Assembly (NCBI GenBank): GCA_020532515.1
Contig: JAJBAY010000015.1
Location: 1-34,203 of the forward strand
Direction: 5' to 3'
Length of the DNA: 34,203 nucleotides
DNA from: Candidatus Cloacimonadota bacterium
Lineage (GTDB): Bacteria > Cloacimonadota > Cloacimonadia > Cloacimonadales > Cloacimonadaceae
Shown here: positions 13,135-21,045 of the stretch, piece after piece
Layout: each line of letters starts with the position of its first letter
How positions within the stretch are numbered: the first letter of the stretch is position 1
Position numbers and translations under genes: made by a program
Notes under the pieces: model-generated
What the model was told of the DNA's origin: nothing
Seen by the model: the letters and a program-made list of their open reading frames with translations, nothing else
The model's database searches: none

Positions 13135-13235
13135 TGTATTTTCAGAGGGGGGTTTTCCCCAGCCAGTTCATATTGTCTTTGGAAGCCGCCCTATCTGACT
13201 TATTATATCTATAAAAGTAAATTTAGGAGTGAAAT

Positions 13236-14570
13236 ATGTCTGGCATCATCTTTTTCAAAACGGTCAATTTGGCTAAAATCAGGGAGTTTTATGAGGGGAG
13301 ATTGGGGCTGAAACTGTGGAAAGATCAAGGCAAATGTTTGATCTTTGCCCATGGCAGCCTGAAACTGGGGTTTTGTGAGGGACAGGCCAGCGAAACGGGC
13401 GGCATCATCACCTTTGTCTATGACAGTCCAGCAGAAGTAGATGCAAGCTATGCCCGCTTTGAAAAGATCGCCACCGGTAAACCGGAAATCAGCGAATACT
13501 ACAAAATCTACCATTTCTGGGCTCGCGATTTTGAAGGTAGAAGTCTTGAGTTCCAATGCTTCATCGAGCCTGAAAAGAAGGGCACAGAAAAAGCAGAGAT
13601 CAGCATCCTCAATCCGGATAAAGCCAAACCCAAATTGCTGCTCACCCGCATGATTCCCGAAAACGCCGTGGATCAATTGAAGCAGGTCTTTGAGGTTCAT
13701 GCCAATACCGAACCCCGAAACTTAAGCAAAGCTGAGCTTCTGCAGCACATTCCCCAAATGGACGGACTGCTCTGCCTTTTAGGAGACACCATCGATCGTG
13801 AACTGCTCGATGCTGCCCCAAAGCTGCGCGTGATCTCAAACTATGCCGTGGGCTACAACAACATCGATATCGACTATGCCAAGTCTAAGAATATCGCCGT
13901 GTGCAATACCCCCGGCGTGCTTACCGAAAGCACCGCAGACCTGGCTTGGGCGCTGATCATGGCTGCCTCCCGACGCATCGTGGAAAGTGATAAATTCGTG
14001 CGCCGCGGAGAATTTGTGGGTTGGGAGCCGCTCCTGTTTTTGGGACAGGATCTGCACCATCGCACCTTGGGGATCCTGGGTCTGGGCAGGATTGGTGAAG
14101 CTGTGGGCAAAAGAGCCACCGGCTTTGGCATGAAAATCCTTTATCACAGCAGAACTGAAAAATCCCCAAGTTATGAAGCCACCAGGGTCGATTTAGAGAC
14201 TTTGCTGAAAGAATCCGACATCCTCAGCATCCACGCACCTTTGACGGATAAGACCCGGCATCTGATCGGAAAGAAAGAATTAGCGATGATGAAGGAAACT
14301 GCCGTTCTAATCAACACAGGCCGAGGCGCCATCGTGGATGAAAAGGAGCTGATCAAAGCTTTGCAAGAGAAACGCATCTTTGCCGCAGGATTCGATGTAT
14401 ATGAACATGAGCCGCAGATCCCTCAGGAGCTCTTAGATTTGGAAAATGTGGTGGTTCTTCCGCATATCGGTTCAGCCAGTTTTGCCACGCGGGCTGCGAT
14501 GGGAGAGATGGCGGCAGAAAACGCGATTGCGATTGTCAAAGGGGAAAAGCCCAAATCCCGAATCGTCTGA
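13236..14570 (+). CDS. VOC (glyoxalase-like) domain fused to D-2-hydroxyacid dehydrogenase
   Basis: This 444-residue protein joins two domains in one uninterrupted frame. Residues 1-112 resemble a vicinal-oxygen-chelate domain: 'FFKTVNLAKIREFYEGRLGLKLW' at the start and 'ARDFEGRSLEFQCF' at the end, retaining E105 as a possible metal ligand. The usual first-strand histidine is not visible. After a charged linker (113-130), residues 132-444 form a complete NAD-dependent D-2-hydroxyacid dehydrogenase (glyoxylate/hydroxypyruvate reductase or D-3-phosphoglycerate dehydrogenase type). It has 'GLGRIG' at 282-287 and the catalytic triad R363, E392 and H410, whose spacings of 29 and 18 match D-glycerate dehydrogenase. 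It is a single-gene unit with AGGAG before the ATG. Substrate is unknown; a 2-oxoacid or methylglyoxal-derived compound is possible. Confidence 0.88.
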   Translation: MSGIIFFKTVNLAKIREFYEGRLGLKLWKDQGKCLIFAHGSLKLGFCEGQASETGGIITFVYDSPAEVDASYARFEKIATGKPEISEYYKIYHFWARDFEGRSLEFQCFIEPEKKGTEKAEISILNPDKAKPKLLLTRMIPENAVDQLKQVFEVHANTEPRNLSKAELLQHIPQMDGLLCLLGDTIDRELLDAAPKLRVISNYAVGYNNIDIDYAKSKNIAVCNTPGVLTESTADLAWALIMAASRRIVESDKFVRRGEFVGWEPLLFLGQDLHHRTLGILGLGRIGEAVGKRATGFGMKILYHSRTEKSPSYEATRVDLETLLKESDILSIHAPLTDKTRHLIGKKELAMMKETAVLINTGRGAIVDEKELIKALQEKRIFAAGFDVYEHEPQIPQELLDLENVVVLPHIGSASFATRAAMGEMAAENAIAIVKGEKPKSRIV

Positions 14571-14680: not shown

Positions 14681-14754
14681 TGGCTGGGATGGGAGGACTT
14701 GAACCCCCACGTACGGAACCAGAATCCGCTGTCCTACCATTAGACGACATCCCA
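14681..14754 (-). tRNA. tRNA-Gln (anticodon CTG)
   Basis: The minus strand folds as a full cloverleaf. The seven-base acceptor stem TGGGATG pairs with CATCCCA, followed by G and an encoded CCA. The anticodon loop is TTCTGGT on a five-pair stem, giving CTG, which reads CAG glutamine codons. The T loop is TTCAAGT. It is the last of four tRNAs in the operon. Confidence 0.93.
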
Positions 14755-14766
14755 TCAAAATTATAT

Positions 14767-14841
14767 TGGCTGGGCAGGGAGGATTTGAACCCCCGGATGC
14801 CAGGACCAAAACCTGGTGCCTTACCGCTTGGCGACTGCCCA
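14767..14841 (-). tRNA. tRNA-Gln (anticodon TTG)
   Basis: Acceptor stem TGGGCAG pairs with CTGCCCA, with G and an encoded CCA after it. The anticodon stem CCAGG/CCTGG encloses loop TTTTGGT, giving anticodon TTG, which reads CAA (and CAG by wobble). The T loop is TTCAAAT. It lies 12 bases upstream of the second glutamine tRNA. Confidence 0.93.
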
Positions 14842-14855
14842 ACTCAAATAAAATG

Positions 14856-14947
<92 letters not shown>

Positions 14948-14984
14948 ATACATTTGTCTATATTATGTTTTCACTACTATACAC

Positions 14985-15070
14985 TGGCGGAGGATGAGGG
15001 ATTCGAACCCCCATGGGCAGAACCCGGCGGTTTTCAAGACCGCTGCCTTACCAATTAGGACTAATCCTCC
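14985..15070 (-). tRNA. tRNA-Ser (anticodon TGA)
   Basis: Acceptor stem GGAGGAT pairs with ATCCTCC, and G plus CCA are encoded. Anticodon stem GCGGT/ACCGC encloses loop CTTGAAA, giving TGA, which reads TCA and related UCN serine codons. The variable arm (CGGG...CCCA) marks class II. It is the first tRNA of the operon, behind the promoter at 15083-15112. Confidence 0.92.
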
Positions 15071-15442: not shown

Positions 15443-18400
15443 TCAGAATTGTACGGGTGTTTTCCTGAGTTTGTACAGGGATTCCAGATACTGCTCAATC
15501 GGCGCATCCGAGGGTACCACAGCTTCACGCAGAGCAATATCAGGCAGAGAATCGTAGGGCTCGGGAACGCTGTGGCTCATTTTGGCGAGCAAGCCTAAAG
15601 CCAGATTGTTCCAGTGTGGCAAATCTGCCGTGGCGGGGGATATCCAATTCAGTGTATAAAATACACGCATCAGTTCGTTGATGACCATAGACTTAGCAGG
15701 ATTGACAAAGCGGGAGACTTCTCCATTATCGCCTATTGCGAGGCCCTCGATTTCCAGATAGTTGGGACCGGGCAGGATGATATCCGCCTCGTGACCTTCT
15801 GGCATATAAGGCGTGATAGCCACTTTGAAGTCTGCCTTGGAAGCAGGGACTTGACCAAAGCACAAGGCAAAATCTACCTTGCGGGTACGCACCGGCCTGG
15901 CTCCCACACTCAAAAAAGCGCCATGGTTTGTATAATCTGTGGTTACCAAAACATGCTGATTACTACCAGCTAATTGCCAGATATGGCCTGCCTCGGCTTC
16001 TGAAATACGGTTTTGATTGTAGATAAAGAGTGGATTCCCGCCTTCTGGCAAATCACTGAGATTAGACAGCTTGAGATCGGCAAATTTGGCAAAGGGTTCA
16101 TCCGGATATGCGACCAAAGTGAGCTTTTTGCCTTGGCGCTGCTGGAGCCTGATCATGCTGCGGAGGGTACAATTCAGATTTCCAATCACCACAAATTCGT
16201 TGTGATCTTCCAAGAGCCCGAAGGCATACTCTTTGGGCACAAGATCCAGCCAATAATCGCTAAAGGCAAAATAGCGGCGATTTGCACGCAGATCCAGCCC
16301 CAGTGTATCGGCGATCCTCTGTGCGATCAGCATCTCTTCACAGGTTATATGAGGGGTGATTTCGATGCTGTGGCTCTCTGCCTGTTCCAGTTTGGCCTGG
16401 ATCGCCACAATGGCGTCTTTCCAGCTGATCGTTTGATATTTACCATTTTGCTGGATCAGGGGTAGGCTGAGTTTTCCGGCAAAAGACTGCCAGCCGAAGC
16501 GCCCTTTGAAGCACAGGTTTTTGCCATTGAACCCAGGATCCTGCTCCGGTGTAGTGATTCTAACCACTTCCCCGGCTTGCATCTCCACCTGAATCTTGCA
16601 ACCCACACCGCAAAGTCCGCAGTTTTGCAGAATATCTTCTTTGGGCCTGGGATTGAGTTTGTAGTTCAAATTGCGTTCCACCAAGGCTCCCACGGGGCAG
16701 ACGTCCGTACATTTGCCGCAAGCCAAACAGTTGGTTTGGGTGAGGGATTCGCCAAATTCCGGAGCTACAATCGCGGAAAACCCTCGGTAGATAAAGCCTA
16801 AAACATTGGCTCCCTGAATCTCGGCACAAGTCCTGATGCAGCGTCCGCAGTTGATGCACTTATTGGCATTACGCACGATAAAAGGATGGGTGTAATCTAT
16901 AGGATGGCGGGAAATAGAGCCCATAAAGCGGTCCATTTCCACTTCATACTGGCTGCAGTAGGATCTTAAGGTACAGGTGTCGTTGACCTGACAGCCACAT
17001 TCCAGACAGCGGGCTGCCTCTCTGCGTGCCTGGATTTCGGAAAAGCCTGTCTCCACTTCCTGAAAAGTGCAGATTGCTTTTTCCAGAGGAATCTGGGGCA
17101 TTTGGATGCGGGGCGCTTTGATAAACATCTCATATTCTTCAGGGGCAACATCTTCCAGCTTTTGTGCCCGCTTGGAATCGAAGACAAACTTGGGTTTGGG
17201 CAATTCACCCGTGAGCAGATAGCTCTGAATGGCCTCAGCGGCCTTGCGTCCATCGGCAATAGCCTCAATGGCGGTGGCGGGCCCTCTTTGAAAATCTCCA
17301 CCGGCAAAGATATTGGCCATGCCGCTATACATGGTGGCATTATCCACGATGGCGGTTTGCCAGCGCGAGATGGGCAGAGTTTCGCCCCCGATCTGGTTTT
17401 CGGCTCTGCTGAAAGGCTCCACTTCCGGCACCTGTGAGATGGCGGCAATGATACTGTCAAATTCTTCGTTGAAACACTGTCCGGTGGGCTCGGGGCGTCT
17501 TCTGCCACTCTTATCCGGCTCTCCCAGGCTCATCTTCTCTATCTTTACTGTATTGAGTTTGCAATCTATACCGCTATATTCCACGGGGTTGCACAGGAAA
17601 TGGAACTTCACCCCTTCCTGCATGGCAGCATCGATCTCAAAAAGCTCTGCGGGCATTTCGTCTTTGGTGCGGCGATAGATGATGCTCACGTCGCAGCCCA
17701 GACGGATGGCGGTTCTGGCGCAATCTATGGCGGTATTTCCCCCACCCACGACGGCGACCTTTTTGCCTAAATCCGGGGTTTGGCCCTTGGCGTGGCTTTT
17801 CAGGAAATCCACTCCCAGATAGCATCCACAGAGATCACTGCCCTGCACAGGCATGGGCACTGCATTTTGCGCACCCACAGCCAGATACACGGCGTCGTAG
17901 TCACGGCTGAGATCACTGAGGGAAAGCTGGTCTCCCAAAGCCATGCCATAGTGAATCTGCATGCCGCCCATGCACATCAGTTCGATCTCACGATCCAGGA
18001 TATCCTTGGGCAAGCGGTACTCCGGGATGCCGTATCTCAGCCAGCCTCCACAGGCCTGTTCCGCTTCAAAAAGATGTACTTCAAAGCCTTCAAAACTAAG
18101 GTAATAGCCACAGGTCAGTCCGCTGGGACCACCTCCGATAATGGCAATCTTCTTACCATTAGCAGGCTTTATCTCGGGGATGTATTGCCAAAAGTCTTCC
18201 AGATCTTCATCGGCGGCAAAGCGTTTGAGCTGGCGGATGGCGATAGGCTCTTCTACGATCTTGCGGCGGCATTCCACTTCACAAAAAGCAGGACACACTC
18301 GCCCGATGGAAAGCGGCATGGGCAGGGTGTCTTTGATGACCTTCACCGCTTCATGATATTTGCCATTGGCGATCAGGGATACATAAGTCTGCACATCTAC

Positions 18401-18724
18401 CTGATCCGGACAGGCCAGCTTGCAAGGGGCCTCACAATCCGCATAGTGATCGCTGATCAGAAGTTCCAAAGCCATCTTGCGCGCGGCATGAATCTCCTGG
18501 TCATCGGTGGTAATTTTCATCCCCGGGGTGAGTTTGGTACCGCAGGATGTCACAAAACCGCGGCGGCCCTCTACCTTGACGGCGCAGACCCAGCACGAGC
18601 CATTGGGCACCAGTTCTTTATCATGACAGAGGGTGGGAATGGCTATGCCTTCGCGGTTTGCGAGGTCCAGAATTGTCATTCCCTCAGGGGCTTCAAGATT
18701 TTTCCCATTCAACACTACTTGCAT
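15443..18724 (-). CDS. GltD-like FAD/NAD(P) oxidoreductase fused with NuoG-like iron-sulfur and degenerate molybdopterin domains
   Basis: This 1093-residue protein is the large subunit of the redox complex. In order: a [2Fe-2S] domain (C33, C44, C47, C61); the GltD-type two-cluster domain (C97, C101, C105 and C144, C148, C152); FAD site 'IIGGGPSGL' (195-203); NAD(P) site 'VVGGGNTAID' (325-334); a cysteine patch at 573-590; two ferredoxin [4Fe-4S] motifs (623-633 and 666-676); a molybdopterin-type [4Fe-4S] motif (C702, C705, C709, C738, then 'KGRFG'); and about 350 residues of molybdopterin-like fold. Where formate dehydrogenases carry catalytic Cys/Sec, this one reads 'NRRYFAFSDYW', so that site is lost, as in NuoG. 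No hydrogenase H-cluster motif is present. AAGGA precedes the ATG, five bases after the NuoF-like stop. Confidence 0.88.
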   Translation of the reverse strand: MQVVLNGKNLEAPEGMTILDLANREGIAIPTLCHDKELVPNGSCWVCAVKVEGRRGFVTSCGTKLTPGMKITTDDQEIHAARKMALELLISDHYADCEAPCKLACPDQVDVQTYVSLIANGKYHEAVKVIKDTLPMPLSIGRVCPAFCEVECRRKIVEEPIAIRQLKRFAADEDLEDFWQYIPEIKPANGKKIAIIGGGPSGLTCGYYLSFEGFEVHLFEAEQACGGWLRYGIPEYRLPKDILDREIELMCMGGMQIHYGMALGDQLSLSDLSRDYDAVYLAVGAQNAVPMPVQGSDLCGCYLGVDFLKSHAKGQTPDLGKKVAVVGGGNTAIDCARTAIRLGCDVSIIYRRTKDEMPAELFEIDAAMQEGVKFHFLCNPVEYSGIDCKLNTVKIEKMSLGEPDKSGRRRPEPTGQCFNEEFDSIIAAISQVPEVEPFSRAENQIGGETLPISRWQTAIVDNATMYSGMANIFAGGDFQRGPATAIEAIADGRKAAEAIQSYLLTGELPKPKFVFDSKRAQKLEDVAPEEYEMFIKAPRIQMPQIPLEKAICTFQEVETGFSEIQARREAARCLECGCQVNDTCTLRSYCSQYEVEMDRFMGSISRHPIDYTHPFIVRNANKCINCGRCIRTCAEIQGANVLGFIYRGFSAIVAPEFGESLTQTNCLACGKCTDVCPVGALVERNLNYKLNPRPKEDILQNCGLCGVGCKIQVEMQAGEVVRITTPEQDPGFNGKNLCFKGRFGWQSFAGKLSLPLIQQNGKYQTISWKDAIVAIQAKLEQAESHSIEITPHITCEEMLIAQRIADTLGLDLRANRRYFAFSDYWLDLVPKEYAFGLLEDHNEFVVIGNLNCTLRSMIRLQQRQGKKLTLVAYPDEPFAKFADLKLSNLSDLPEGGNPLFIYNQNRISEAEAGHIWQLAGSNQHVLVTTDYTNHGAFLSVGARPVRTRKVDFALCFGQVPASKADFKVAITPYMPEGHEADIILPGPNYLEIEGLAIGDNGEVSRFVNPAKSMVINELMRVFYTLNWISPATADLPHWNNLALGLLAKMSHSVPEPYDSLPDIALREAVVPSDAPIEQYLESLYKLRKTPVQF

Positions 18725-18729
18725 TGACT

Positions 18730-20496
18730 TTATCCTTTACTGATCGCGTTAAATTTGCAGGCGGAGTAGCAGGCACCGCAGTGAATGCACAGCTCCTGAT
18801 CGATTAAATGTACTTCCTTTACCTTTCCAGAGATGCAGGAAACCGGGCATACTCGTGCACAAGCGGTGCAGCCGATGCACTGATCCGGGATGATTTCAAA
18901 TCTTAAGAGAGAGCTGCAGACCTTGGCGGGACAGCGTTTGTCCTGGATATGTGCCAGATATTCATCCTCAAAATAGCGCAGGGTGGTAAGCACTGGATTG
19001 GGAGCGGTCTGCCCCAGTCCGCACAGTGAACCTTTGGTGATATTAGCGGCCAGATCGCGCAGCTTTTGAATGTCTTCCATAGTGCCCAGGCCTTTGGTGA
19101 TACGGGTGAGGATTTCCAGCATGCGGCGGGTGCCGATCCGGCAAAATGTGCATTTACCGCAGGATTCGCTTTGGGTGAAATTCAGGAAGAAGCGTGCCAC
19201 ATCTACCATGCAGGTAGAGGAGTCCATCACCACCATGCCTCCGGAGCCCATGATGGCGCCAGTAGCATTGATGGAATCGTAATCCACCGTGGTATCCAAG
19301 AGTGAATCCGGGATGCAGCCCCCGGAAGGGCCTCCCATCTGCACTGCTTTGAAGGGCCTGTCGCTCTTCATGCCTCCGCCAACTTTATAGATAATATCCC
19401 GGAGCGAAATACCCATCGGCACTTCGATGAGACCACTGCCGGCGATCTTACCGGTGAGGGCAAAGACCTTGGTGCCAGGAGAATCCTGGGTGCCAATCTC
19501 CTTGAATTCATTGGCGCCATGATTGATGATCCAGGTGATATTTGCCCAAGTTTCCACGTTGTTAATATTGGTAGGGCAGCCCCAGAGCCCGCTTTCGGCG
19601 GGGAAGGGTGGGCGAATTACGGGCATGCCGCGTTTACCTTCAATGGATTGCATCAATGCAGTTTCTTCTCCGCAAACGAAGGCACCGGCGCCTTCCTTGA
19701 TATGAAGGGTAAAGTAAAAATTGGTGCCCAAGATACTCCTGCCCAGATAGCCTTTCCTTTGGGCATCTGCGATGGCCAGCTTGAGATGCTTCACCGCCAT
19801 CGGATACTCGGCCCGGCAATAGATATAGCCTTCATCCGCGCCCATGGCATAAGCCCCGATGATCATACCTTCGATCACGTTGTGCGGATCTCCTTCCAGG
19901 GTGCTACGGTCCATGAATGCGCCGGGATCGCCTTCATCGGCATTGCAAATCACATATTTCTTGGCACCTTTGGCTTGGGCGGCAAAGCTCCATTTGAGGC
20001 CAGTGGGGAATCCGGCTCCGCCCCGGCCGCGTAAACCGGAGGCTTTGATGATCTCTATGACCTCTTGGGGAGACATAGTCATCACTTTCTTCAGCGCGGA
20101 GTAGCCCCCATGTGCTTCGTAATCGTCAATGGATTTGGGGTCTATCACTCCACAGTTTTTCAGCACGATCCGGGTTTGCTCACTGAGCAGACTGTCCCGG
20201 CTGCCTTCATGTGTTTCGGTAAGGATTACGTTGGCATTGGGGATTTTATCCTGGCGATATTCTTCGATATTCTCCAGGATATCTCCCGGTTTTACTTGAC
20301 CCAGGCTGAGTGTGCCGAGTTTGCCACCGCTCAGCTCCACAATGGGCTCTTCAAAGCACATGCCGATGCAGGCAGTGCGCATCAGGCGAAAATCTGCGCC
20401 TTGCTCGCGATGCTTTTCCAAAAGCTCAAATACTTCCATAGCCCCTGCAGCAACGCCACAGCTGGCGAGTCCTACTTTTACCGTGATCTGGCTCAT
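18730..20496 (-). CDS. NuoF/HydB-like FMN and NAD(H)-binding subunit
   Basis: The 588-residue product is the NAD(H)-oxidising flavoprotein of NuoEF-type complexes. An N-terminal thioredoxin-like domain has three cysteines (C13, C43, C47) where four are usual. The core carries FMN motif 'GRGGAGFPTGLKW' (about 157-169), NADH motif 'NADEGDPGAFMDR', 'EGAGAFVCGEETALM' and the [4Fe-4S] ligands C446, C449, C452 and C492. Two extra C-terminal [4Fe-4S] ferredoxin motifs follow (C540, C543, C546, C550 and C570, C573, C576, C580), as in HydB/HndC of bifurcating hydrogenases and absent from complex I NuoF. Length agrees with HydB (about 600). It overlaps the NuoE-like gene by four bases (ATGA). Its partner is the GltD/NuoG chimera encoded next. 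Confidence 0.93.
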   Translation of the reverse strand: MSQITVKVGLASCGVAAGAMEVFELLEKHREQGADFRLMRTACIGMCFEEPIVELSGGKLGTLSLGQVKPGDILENIEEYRQDKIPNANVILTETHEGSRDSLLSEQTRIVLKNCGVIDPKSIDDYEAHGGYSALKKVMTMSPQEVIEIIKASGLRGRGGAGFPTGLKWSFAAQAKGAKKYVICNADEGDPGAFMDRSTLEGDPHNVIEGMIIGAYAMGADEGYIYCRAEYPMAVKHLKLAIADAQRKGYLGRSILGTNFYFTLHIKEGAGAFVCGEETALMQSIEGKRGMPVIRPPFPAESGLWGCPTNINNVETWANITWIINHGANEFKEIGTQDSPGTKVFALTGKIAGSGLIEVPMGISLRDIIYKVGGGMKSDRPFKAVQMGGPSGGCIPDSLLDTTVDYDSINATGAIMGSGGMVVMDSSTCMVDVARFFLNFTQSESCGKCTFCRIGTRRMLEILTRITKGLGTMEDIQKLRDLAANITKGSLCGLGQTAPNPVLTTLRYFEDEYLAHIQDKRCPAKVCSSLLRFEIIPDQCIGCTACARVCPVSCISGKVKEVHLIDQELCIHCGACYSACKFNAISKG

Positions 20497-20969
20497 TTAT
20501 CCTCTCCAAAAGCGTAGCGCTGAAGGATGTTTGGAATAAGCTCTGGAGTGAGCTTTCCATAAGTGGTGTCATCGATCATGATCACCGGAGCCAGCGAGCA
20601 ACAGCCCAAACAGGCAACTTCCACCAAGGTGAATTTCATATCCATGGTAGTATCTTCATCACTTTGCAGCCTCAAAGCAGCTCTGAGTGCTTCCTTGATC
20701 TCATCTGCGTCCGACACATGACAGGCAGTGCCTTTGCAGACGCGGACGATGTGCCGGCCCTGAGGCTTGAGTTTGAACATGGAGTAAAAAGTGGCAACTC
20801 CATAGATATCCGCTGCGGGGATTTGCATCTTATCCGCTATATAACGCATGGCATCCTTGGAAAGATAGCCAAGCAGATCTTGTACCTCTTGTAATAAGGG
20901 GATCAGGATTCCGGGCTTTGTTTGATAAGCCTGGATGATTGTATCAAGCTGGGAAAAATCCCGTTCCAT
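20493..20969 (-). CDS. NuoE/HydC-like [2Fe-2S] subunit
   Basis: The 158-residue protein is the small thioredoxin-like [2Fe-2S] subunit of the NuoEF module. A helical N-terminal part ('LLQEVQDLLGYLSKDAMRYIADKM.IPAADIYGVATFYSMF') is followed by the cluster domain with 'VCKGTACH' (C-x4-C) and 'CLGCC' (C-x3-C). These supply all four ligands, as in NuoE, HndA and HydC. A longer reading could start at 21017, but two adjacent ATGs at 20972 and 20969 follow AGGA. The second has the better seven-base spacing and yields the usual family length. It opens the three-gene operon downstream of a TTGACA box at 21070-21075. Confidence 0.92.
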   Translation of the reverse strand: MERDFSQLDTIIQAYQTKPGILIPLLQEVQDLLGYLSKDAMRYIADKMQIPAADIYGVATFYSMFKLKPQGRHIVRVCKGTACHVSDADEIKEALRAALRLQSDEDTTMDMKFTLVEVACLGCCSLAPVIMIDDTTYGKLTPELIPNILQRYAFGEDK

Positions 20970-21045
20970 CATGTATTCCTTTGTGCATCGCGTCTGGTAA
21001 CAGTCCATCGCACACACAGTTATAGTGTTTAAACCAAATTAAAGT

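Follow-up and report, generated by a model that had tools for sequence, protein, structure and literature searches.

A VOC-like domain fused to a glyoxylate/hydroxypyruvate reductase-type dehydrogenase in one genus of Cloacimonadota

A gene of a Candidatus Cloacimonadota bacterium (assembly GCA_020532515.1, contig JAJBAY010000015.1) joins a domain resembling the glyoxalase-like VOC superfamily to what looks like a complete D-2-hydroxyacid dehydrogenase, which raises the question of whether this join is genuine and, if so, what a VOC domain does on a reductase. The window, that is, the whole stretch of DNA analysed, comprises 34,203 nucleotides of a genome of 2.33 Mb distributed over 150 contigs and estimated to be 93% complete. 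In GenBank, it is closest to metagenome-assembled genomes of Candidatus Cloacimonadota. As the preliminary description of this DNA stated, the gene is one continuous frame without internal stops (Table 1), and of the 12 fused genes found in the genus of the window (hereafter g1), most have a purine-rich site of the GGAG type ahead of the start.

Table 1. Position of the fused gene and of its parts in the window.
Feature	Position	Strand	Remarks
VOC-GRHPR fusion gene, 444 aa + stop	13236..14570	+	single open frame, ATG
Ribosome-binding site AGGAG, 7 bases 5' of ATG	13224..13228	+	
VOC-like domain, residues 1-112	13236..13571	+	predicted paired beta-alpha-beta-beta-beta; family-invariant residues
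Linker, residues 113-130	13572..13625	+	ILNP..K motif conserved genus-wide
GRHPR-type D-2-hydroxyacid dehydrogenase, residues 131-444	13626..14567	+	PDB 2dbq/6bii/5aov best by sequence and fold
Catalytic Arg363	14322..14324	+	Arg241 of Pyrococcus GRHPR
Catalytic Glu392	14409..14411	+	Glu270 of Pyrococcus GRHPR
Catalytic His410	14463..14465	+	His288 of Pyrococcus GRHPR
GRHPR, glyoxylate/hydroxypyruvate reductase.

The full-length fusion was present in all 12 g1 genomes, with 60-100% identity and free of internal stops, and residues 1-444 (or 4-444) were spanned in one frame in each of them. Two findings might have undone the preliminary description, namely a frameshift or an absent stop codon at the domain junction, and homologues that are all devoid of the N-terminal domain; both were looked for among these congeneric genomes, in which the frame was uninterrupted and the VOC part retained in every case. 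By the Nei-Gojobori method, the VOC part had a dN/dS of 0.083 in one and 0.074 in the other of the two closest g1 pairs, and the dehydrogenase one of 0.086 and 0.069, respectively, which corresponds to strong purifying selection on both alike (dN/dS ~0.08); the N-terminal domain is therefore kept by selection. The linker evolves more freely than either part; it is charged in the window sequence, as had been noted, and varies across the genus apart from the ILNP..K motif. An assembly or sequencing artefact, or read-through joining two separate genes, has in its favour the weak score of the window sequence alone as a VOC domain and nothing else, and its probability is close to nil given that 12 genomes, from different species, share the same join in one frame, that both parts are under purifying selection and that the 12 fused genes lack a conserved in-frame internal start at the N-terminus of the dehydrogenase. 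The production of a separate dehydrogenase from an internal start was also considered and rejected, as it lacks a conserved candidate start. The join of VOC domain and reductase is thus real and inherited, and not an artefact of sequencing.

Among the 125 Cloacimonadota genomes searched, the fusion was absent from the 113 outside g1. A broader scan of one genome per species, covering 84,980 species, returned among the matches listed two records spanning residues 1-444 in one frame, both from Cloacimonadota metagenome-assembled genomes in GenBank (L006, 90%; L027, 63%) that may duplicate two of the twelve g1 assemblies, and the remaining 78 loci among the matches listed carried essentially the dehydrogenase part alone. 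The architecture appears to be restricted to one genus within the genomes searched, and fusions may exist elsewhere in UniProt and InterPro. The preliminary description had regarded the combination as unusual, in agreement with the literature searched, in which no published description of a VOC domain combined with a D-2-hydroxyacid dehydrogenase was found. This is a new domain architecture assembled from known parts, documented here in a single genus.

The dehydrogenase begins at residue 131, which aligns to residue 2 of 6bii, and exceeds the curated cut-offs of both PF00389 (108.2 bits; cut-off 24.6) and PF02826 (208.7 bits; cut-off 25.1). Its best PDB matches by sequence were the glyoxylate/hydroxypyruvate reductases (GRHPR) of Pyrococcus (6bii, E 2e-97; 5aov; 2dbq). 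These Thermococcales enzymes match residues 131-441 with 47-50% identity, reach a TM-score of ~0.9 on the target in the fold search and have all catalytic and tunnel-gate residues in common with the fused protein, but they are 333-336 aa long and carry no VOC domain. Nine GRHPR determinants were invariant in the 12 fused proteins, namely L182, V205, G206, W263, R363, E392, H410, S413 and R419, which through the 6bii alignment map to Leu53, Val76, Gly77, Trp138, Arg241, Glu270, His288, Ser291 and Arg297 of Pyrococcus GRHPR, respectively. In Pyrococcus GRHPR the equivalent residues bind, gate and reduce glyoxylate or hydroxypyruvate, and Leu53 and Trp138 have been named as the gatekeepers (PMC4749974). 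The catalytic Arg, Glu and His were located exactly where the preliminary description had placed them, with the correct spacing (241/270/288 plus 122), and the intact D-2-hydroxyacid dehydrogenase that it proposed was borne out, with the class sharpened from the spacing of D-glycerate dehydrogenase to a GRHPR-like enzyme. The NCBIfam equivalog for glyoxylate reductase (NF009714) was not reached (391 bits against a cut-off of 455, which is a naming rule and not a biochemical feature), and a free-standing orthologue from another genome (G001) also fell below it (406); because the cut-off was missed, the protein was filed as GRHPR-like and not as a named equivalog. Taken together, these features indicate that the dehydrogenase is most likely a working GRHPR, i.e., an NAD(P)H-dependent D-2-hydroxyacid dehydrogenase, and that it most likely reduces glyoxylate, hydroxypyruvate or another small 2-oxo acid of this kind. 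Glycerate as the main product is unsupported, since the glycerate kinase families PF13660 and PF02595 are absent from the 93% complete genome. A glycerate salvage pathway, considered as a candidate role, was left unsupported by the same absence of these two common families.

The preliminary description drew an analogy with phosphoglycerate dehydrogenase (SerA), whose ACT domain is C-terminal. SerA resembles the fused protein in belonging to the same dehydrogenase superfamily and in bearing an added small domain, yet the extra domain of the fused protein is an N-terminal VOC domain and its GRHPR-type gate residues set it apart. No ACT domain was matched, and the 2-Hacid_dh match extends to residue 443 of 444.

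The VOC domain proposed for residues 1-112 was corroborated mainly through its relatives. The window sequence scores 13.9 bits with the Pfam Glyoxalase model, below the cut-off of 20.6, whereas 10 of 16 diverse members of the same family match PF00903 at E <= 0.01 (best E 2.6e-10), so that membership of the VOC superfamily is indicated by the family members and not by the window sequence itself; the VOC fragment of the fused protein matched no NCBIfam family. An AlphaFold2 model of the full protein showed the order beta-alpha-beta-beta-beta in residues 4-47 and again in residues 57-109, with low confidence in the VOC part (pLDDT block means ~45-83). The single-sequence model of the VOC domain alone was poor (pLDDT 47), and the fold search with it returned mainly VOC proteins, including dioxygenases, FosA/FosB, glyoxalase and bleomycin-binding proteins, all at E ~0.05 or worse. 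Similarly, the family profile, which includes the window VOC sequence, gave weak matches in the PDB (best E 0.02), many of them VOC proteins.

According to this profile, members of the VOC family occur in 46 of 125 Cloacimonadota and 16 of 399 Bacillota genomes, and a search with one member recovered relatives annotated as 'VOC family protein' on two haloarchaeal plasmids. No relative was found in viral contigs, a single weak match was obtained in 396 Bacteroidota genomes, and the family was absent at E 0.001 from twelve genomes that belong to other phyla and encode related dehydrogenases. The free VOC proteins of Haloarchaea, Bacillota and other Cloacimonadota are similar over their whole length to residues 1-112 and have the same invariant residues, but are single-domain proteins of ~108-122 aa that, where annotated, are called just 'VOC family protein'.

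The aligned VOC sequences of Bacillota and Cloacimonadota are invariant at G3, F6, Y19, Q31, C34, I36, F46, C47, T59, I91, Y92, F94, D98, G101, E105, Q107 and F109, and these family-invariant residues are conserved in all 12 fused proteins. Five of them (Q31, C34, C47, E105 and Q107) are conserved whether the VOC protein is free, linked to a nitroreductase or linked to the reductase. Regarding the four usual metal-ligand positions, which we take partly from general knowledge of VOC enzymes and located through a loose alignment with the methylmalonyl-CoA-epimerase-like VOC protein encoded in the same genome, Glu105 alone persists and the other three are occupied by hydrophobic residues, Gly or Thr. 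The preliminary description had already remarked that the first ligand is missing and a late glutamate kept; the alignment extends this to the loss of three of the four positions throughout the family. The set of four His/Glu/Gln ligands that defines metal-dependent VOC enzymes and glyoxalase I thus appears to be incomplete, and the VOC module is probably a non-canonical, metal-free, putative ligand-binding domain. Because three of the four canonical ligands were lost family-wide, the module is unlikely to perform glyoxalase chemistry on adducts of methylglyoxal. Glyoxalase I activity through a normal metal site was accordingly disfavoured as a candidate function, given the missing ligands and the absence of an NCBIfam match. 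In the AlphaFold2 model, C34 and C47 would lie opposite each other on the predicted hairpin of strand 3 and strand 4 (residues 34-39 and 42-47) and might form a pair, and the invariant Cys34/Cys47, Gln31, Glu105 and Gln107 would line a pocket, judging its geometry from strand order and alignment.

The relatives of the fused gene suggest how it may have arisen. In seven of the nine genomes of the sister genus g2, the VOC family is fused N-terminally to a nitroreductase (PF00881) in a protein of 278-279 aa, whose gene lies immediately upstream of that for the orthologous reductase and usually overlaps it by four bases; in one g2 genome (G009) the contig ends within the VOC part. In three of six g8 genomes the reductase comes first and the VOC-nitroreductase lies downstream, while the other three have the reductase without a match to the VOC family. 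The VOC-nitroreductases of other Cloacimonadota and of one Bacillota genome (G001, G386, etc.) contain the same VOC family at the N-terminus (~38-53% identity), and those of g2 and g8 are encoded beside the orthologous reductase, but their partner domain is a nitroreductase and not a D-2-hydroxyacid dehydrogenase. Elsewhere the VOC-nitroreductase is unlinked, and lone VOC proteins of ~112-120 aa also occur; in one genome (G083) the gene immediately after a free VOC gene encodes a free nitroreductase. Several genera possess the reductase but no member of the VOC family, which indicates that the VOC module is generally dispensable for reductase activity. In two related Bacillota, a free VOC gene lies 12 bases upstream of a reductase with 49-50% identity, an adjacency that probably represents one event (two close relatives among ~16 VOC-bearing genomes) and could conceivably be due to chance.

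The reductase tree grouped g1 in one clade (99/97) and g2 in another (100/96), with the two as sisters (95/88); the VOC tree was too poorly resolved to establish a path from operon to fusion, though it does not contradict one. Since the g2 order is VOC, nitroreductase, reductase, the simplest route would be that the g1 fusion derived from such an operon by in-frame loss of the nitroreductase. A likely path is therefore visible in living relatives, from a free VOC protein to a VOC domain beside or fused with a nitroreductase, then to an operon with the reductase and finally to direct fusion. Through this partner-swapping series, an uncharacterised VOC family that occurs in Bacteria and Archaea becomes connected with reductases, and its role is brought within reach of ordinary enzymology.

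As to what the VOC module does, an accessory ligand-binding or regulatory role on GRHPR is the explanation we favour, with about an even chance of being right. The covalently attached module would ride on an otherwise ordinary GRHPR in one Cloacimonadota genus, its pocket would bind a small metabolite of the carbonyl- or thiol-adduct type, and the ligand-bound module would either modulate the attached reductase or hand substrate over to it. Functional coupling is supported by the repeated occurrence of this VOC family together with reductases, through fusion, operon and adjacency. The preliminary description had offered substrate channelling and regulatory sensing as possibilities, both of which would fit the sequence, and its interpretation is partly supported. 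The domain might instead be an enzyme itself, acting on a thiol adduct via Cys34/Cys47 or through a non-standard metal site and passing a 2-oxo or hydroxy-acid product to the attached reductase, which would make the protein a two-step detoxifying enzyme. This alternative gains from the invariant Cys, Gln and Glu residues, from the switch of partner between reductases of two types and from a Bacillota relative that weakly matches glyoxalase I models, but it is unlikely, if still a serious contender, in view of the lost metal ligands, the lack of an NCBIfam match for the VOC fragment and a nitroreductase partner that has no known substrate class in common with GRHPR.

VOC domains commonly pair, which would suit a purely structural domain that dimerises or stabilises the reductase without a ligand. 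The homodimeric state of GRHPR (PMC4749974) and the short, freely evolving linker would fit such a role as well; nevertheless, the five residues conserved across unlike partners look more like a pocket than an interface, and we regard this explanation as slightly less likely again. A decaying remnant of a lost VOC-nitroreductase, passively carried, would be in keeping with the fact that no such protein was seen in g1 and with the somewhat faster divergence of the VOC part (85% identity against 93% for the reductase in the closest g1 pair), but is very improbable for a domain with a dN/dS of ~0.08 and all family-invariant residues conserved in 12 of 12 proteins. Beyond the accessory ligand-binding or regulatory role in g1, the metal-free VOC family with its conserved cysteines could constitute a portable redox- or ligand-sensing module controlling different reductases, plugged onto a nitroreductase in several lineages or onto GRHPR in g1, in a manner comparable to the control of phosphoglycerate dehydrogenases by ACT domains; we consider this broader proposal rather unlikely.

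Some additional observations concern the VOC-nitroreductase family itself (~280 aa), which occurs widely among Cloacimonadota and in one or more Bacillota genomes (loci L116:6971-7810 of G001, L117-L119, L121-L130 and L132; Bacillota L193/L214). The nitroreductase part resembles BluB weakly, as it does other nitroreductase models, and falls below cut-off with every one. In one genome (G031, L122:5118-6071), the reductase gene adjoining the VOC-nitroreductase is split into two ORFs by one TGA. Genes adjoining a VOC-nitroreductase or VOC gene include RseC-like and CsoR/FrmR-like genes (by eye; L214:5264-6873), a CoA-disulfide-reductase-like gene (by eye; L126:5510-7249) and an annotated pair of DUF1641 and FAD oxidoreductase genes (L191:6283-8282), and these three neighbourhoods could conceivably reflect a link to thiols or sulfide.

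The neighbours of the fused gene differ among g1 genomes, and hence its operon context says little. In two of them (G035, L170:8359-9567; G039, L174:6427-7638), a gene resembling iron-type alcohol dehydrogenases by eye lies ~132 bases upstream on the same strand; it was not seen in the other g1 members examined. In the window, four tRNA genes (Gln CTG, Gln TTG, Ser GCT and Ser TGA; 14681-15070, - strand) are located just downstream of the fused gene in convergent orientation. Further along, a three-gene set resembling NuoE/NuoF/NuoG (15443-21017, - strand) includes a 1093-aa protein with 2Fe-2S, GltD-like pyridine-nucleotide oxidoreductase, ferredoxin and partial molybdopterin-oxidoreductase domains, an unusual-looking combination.
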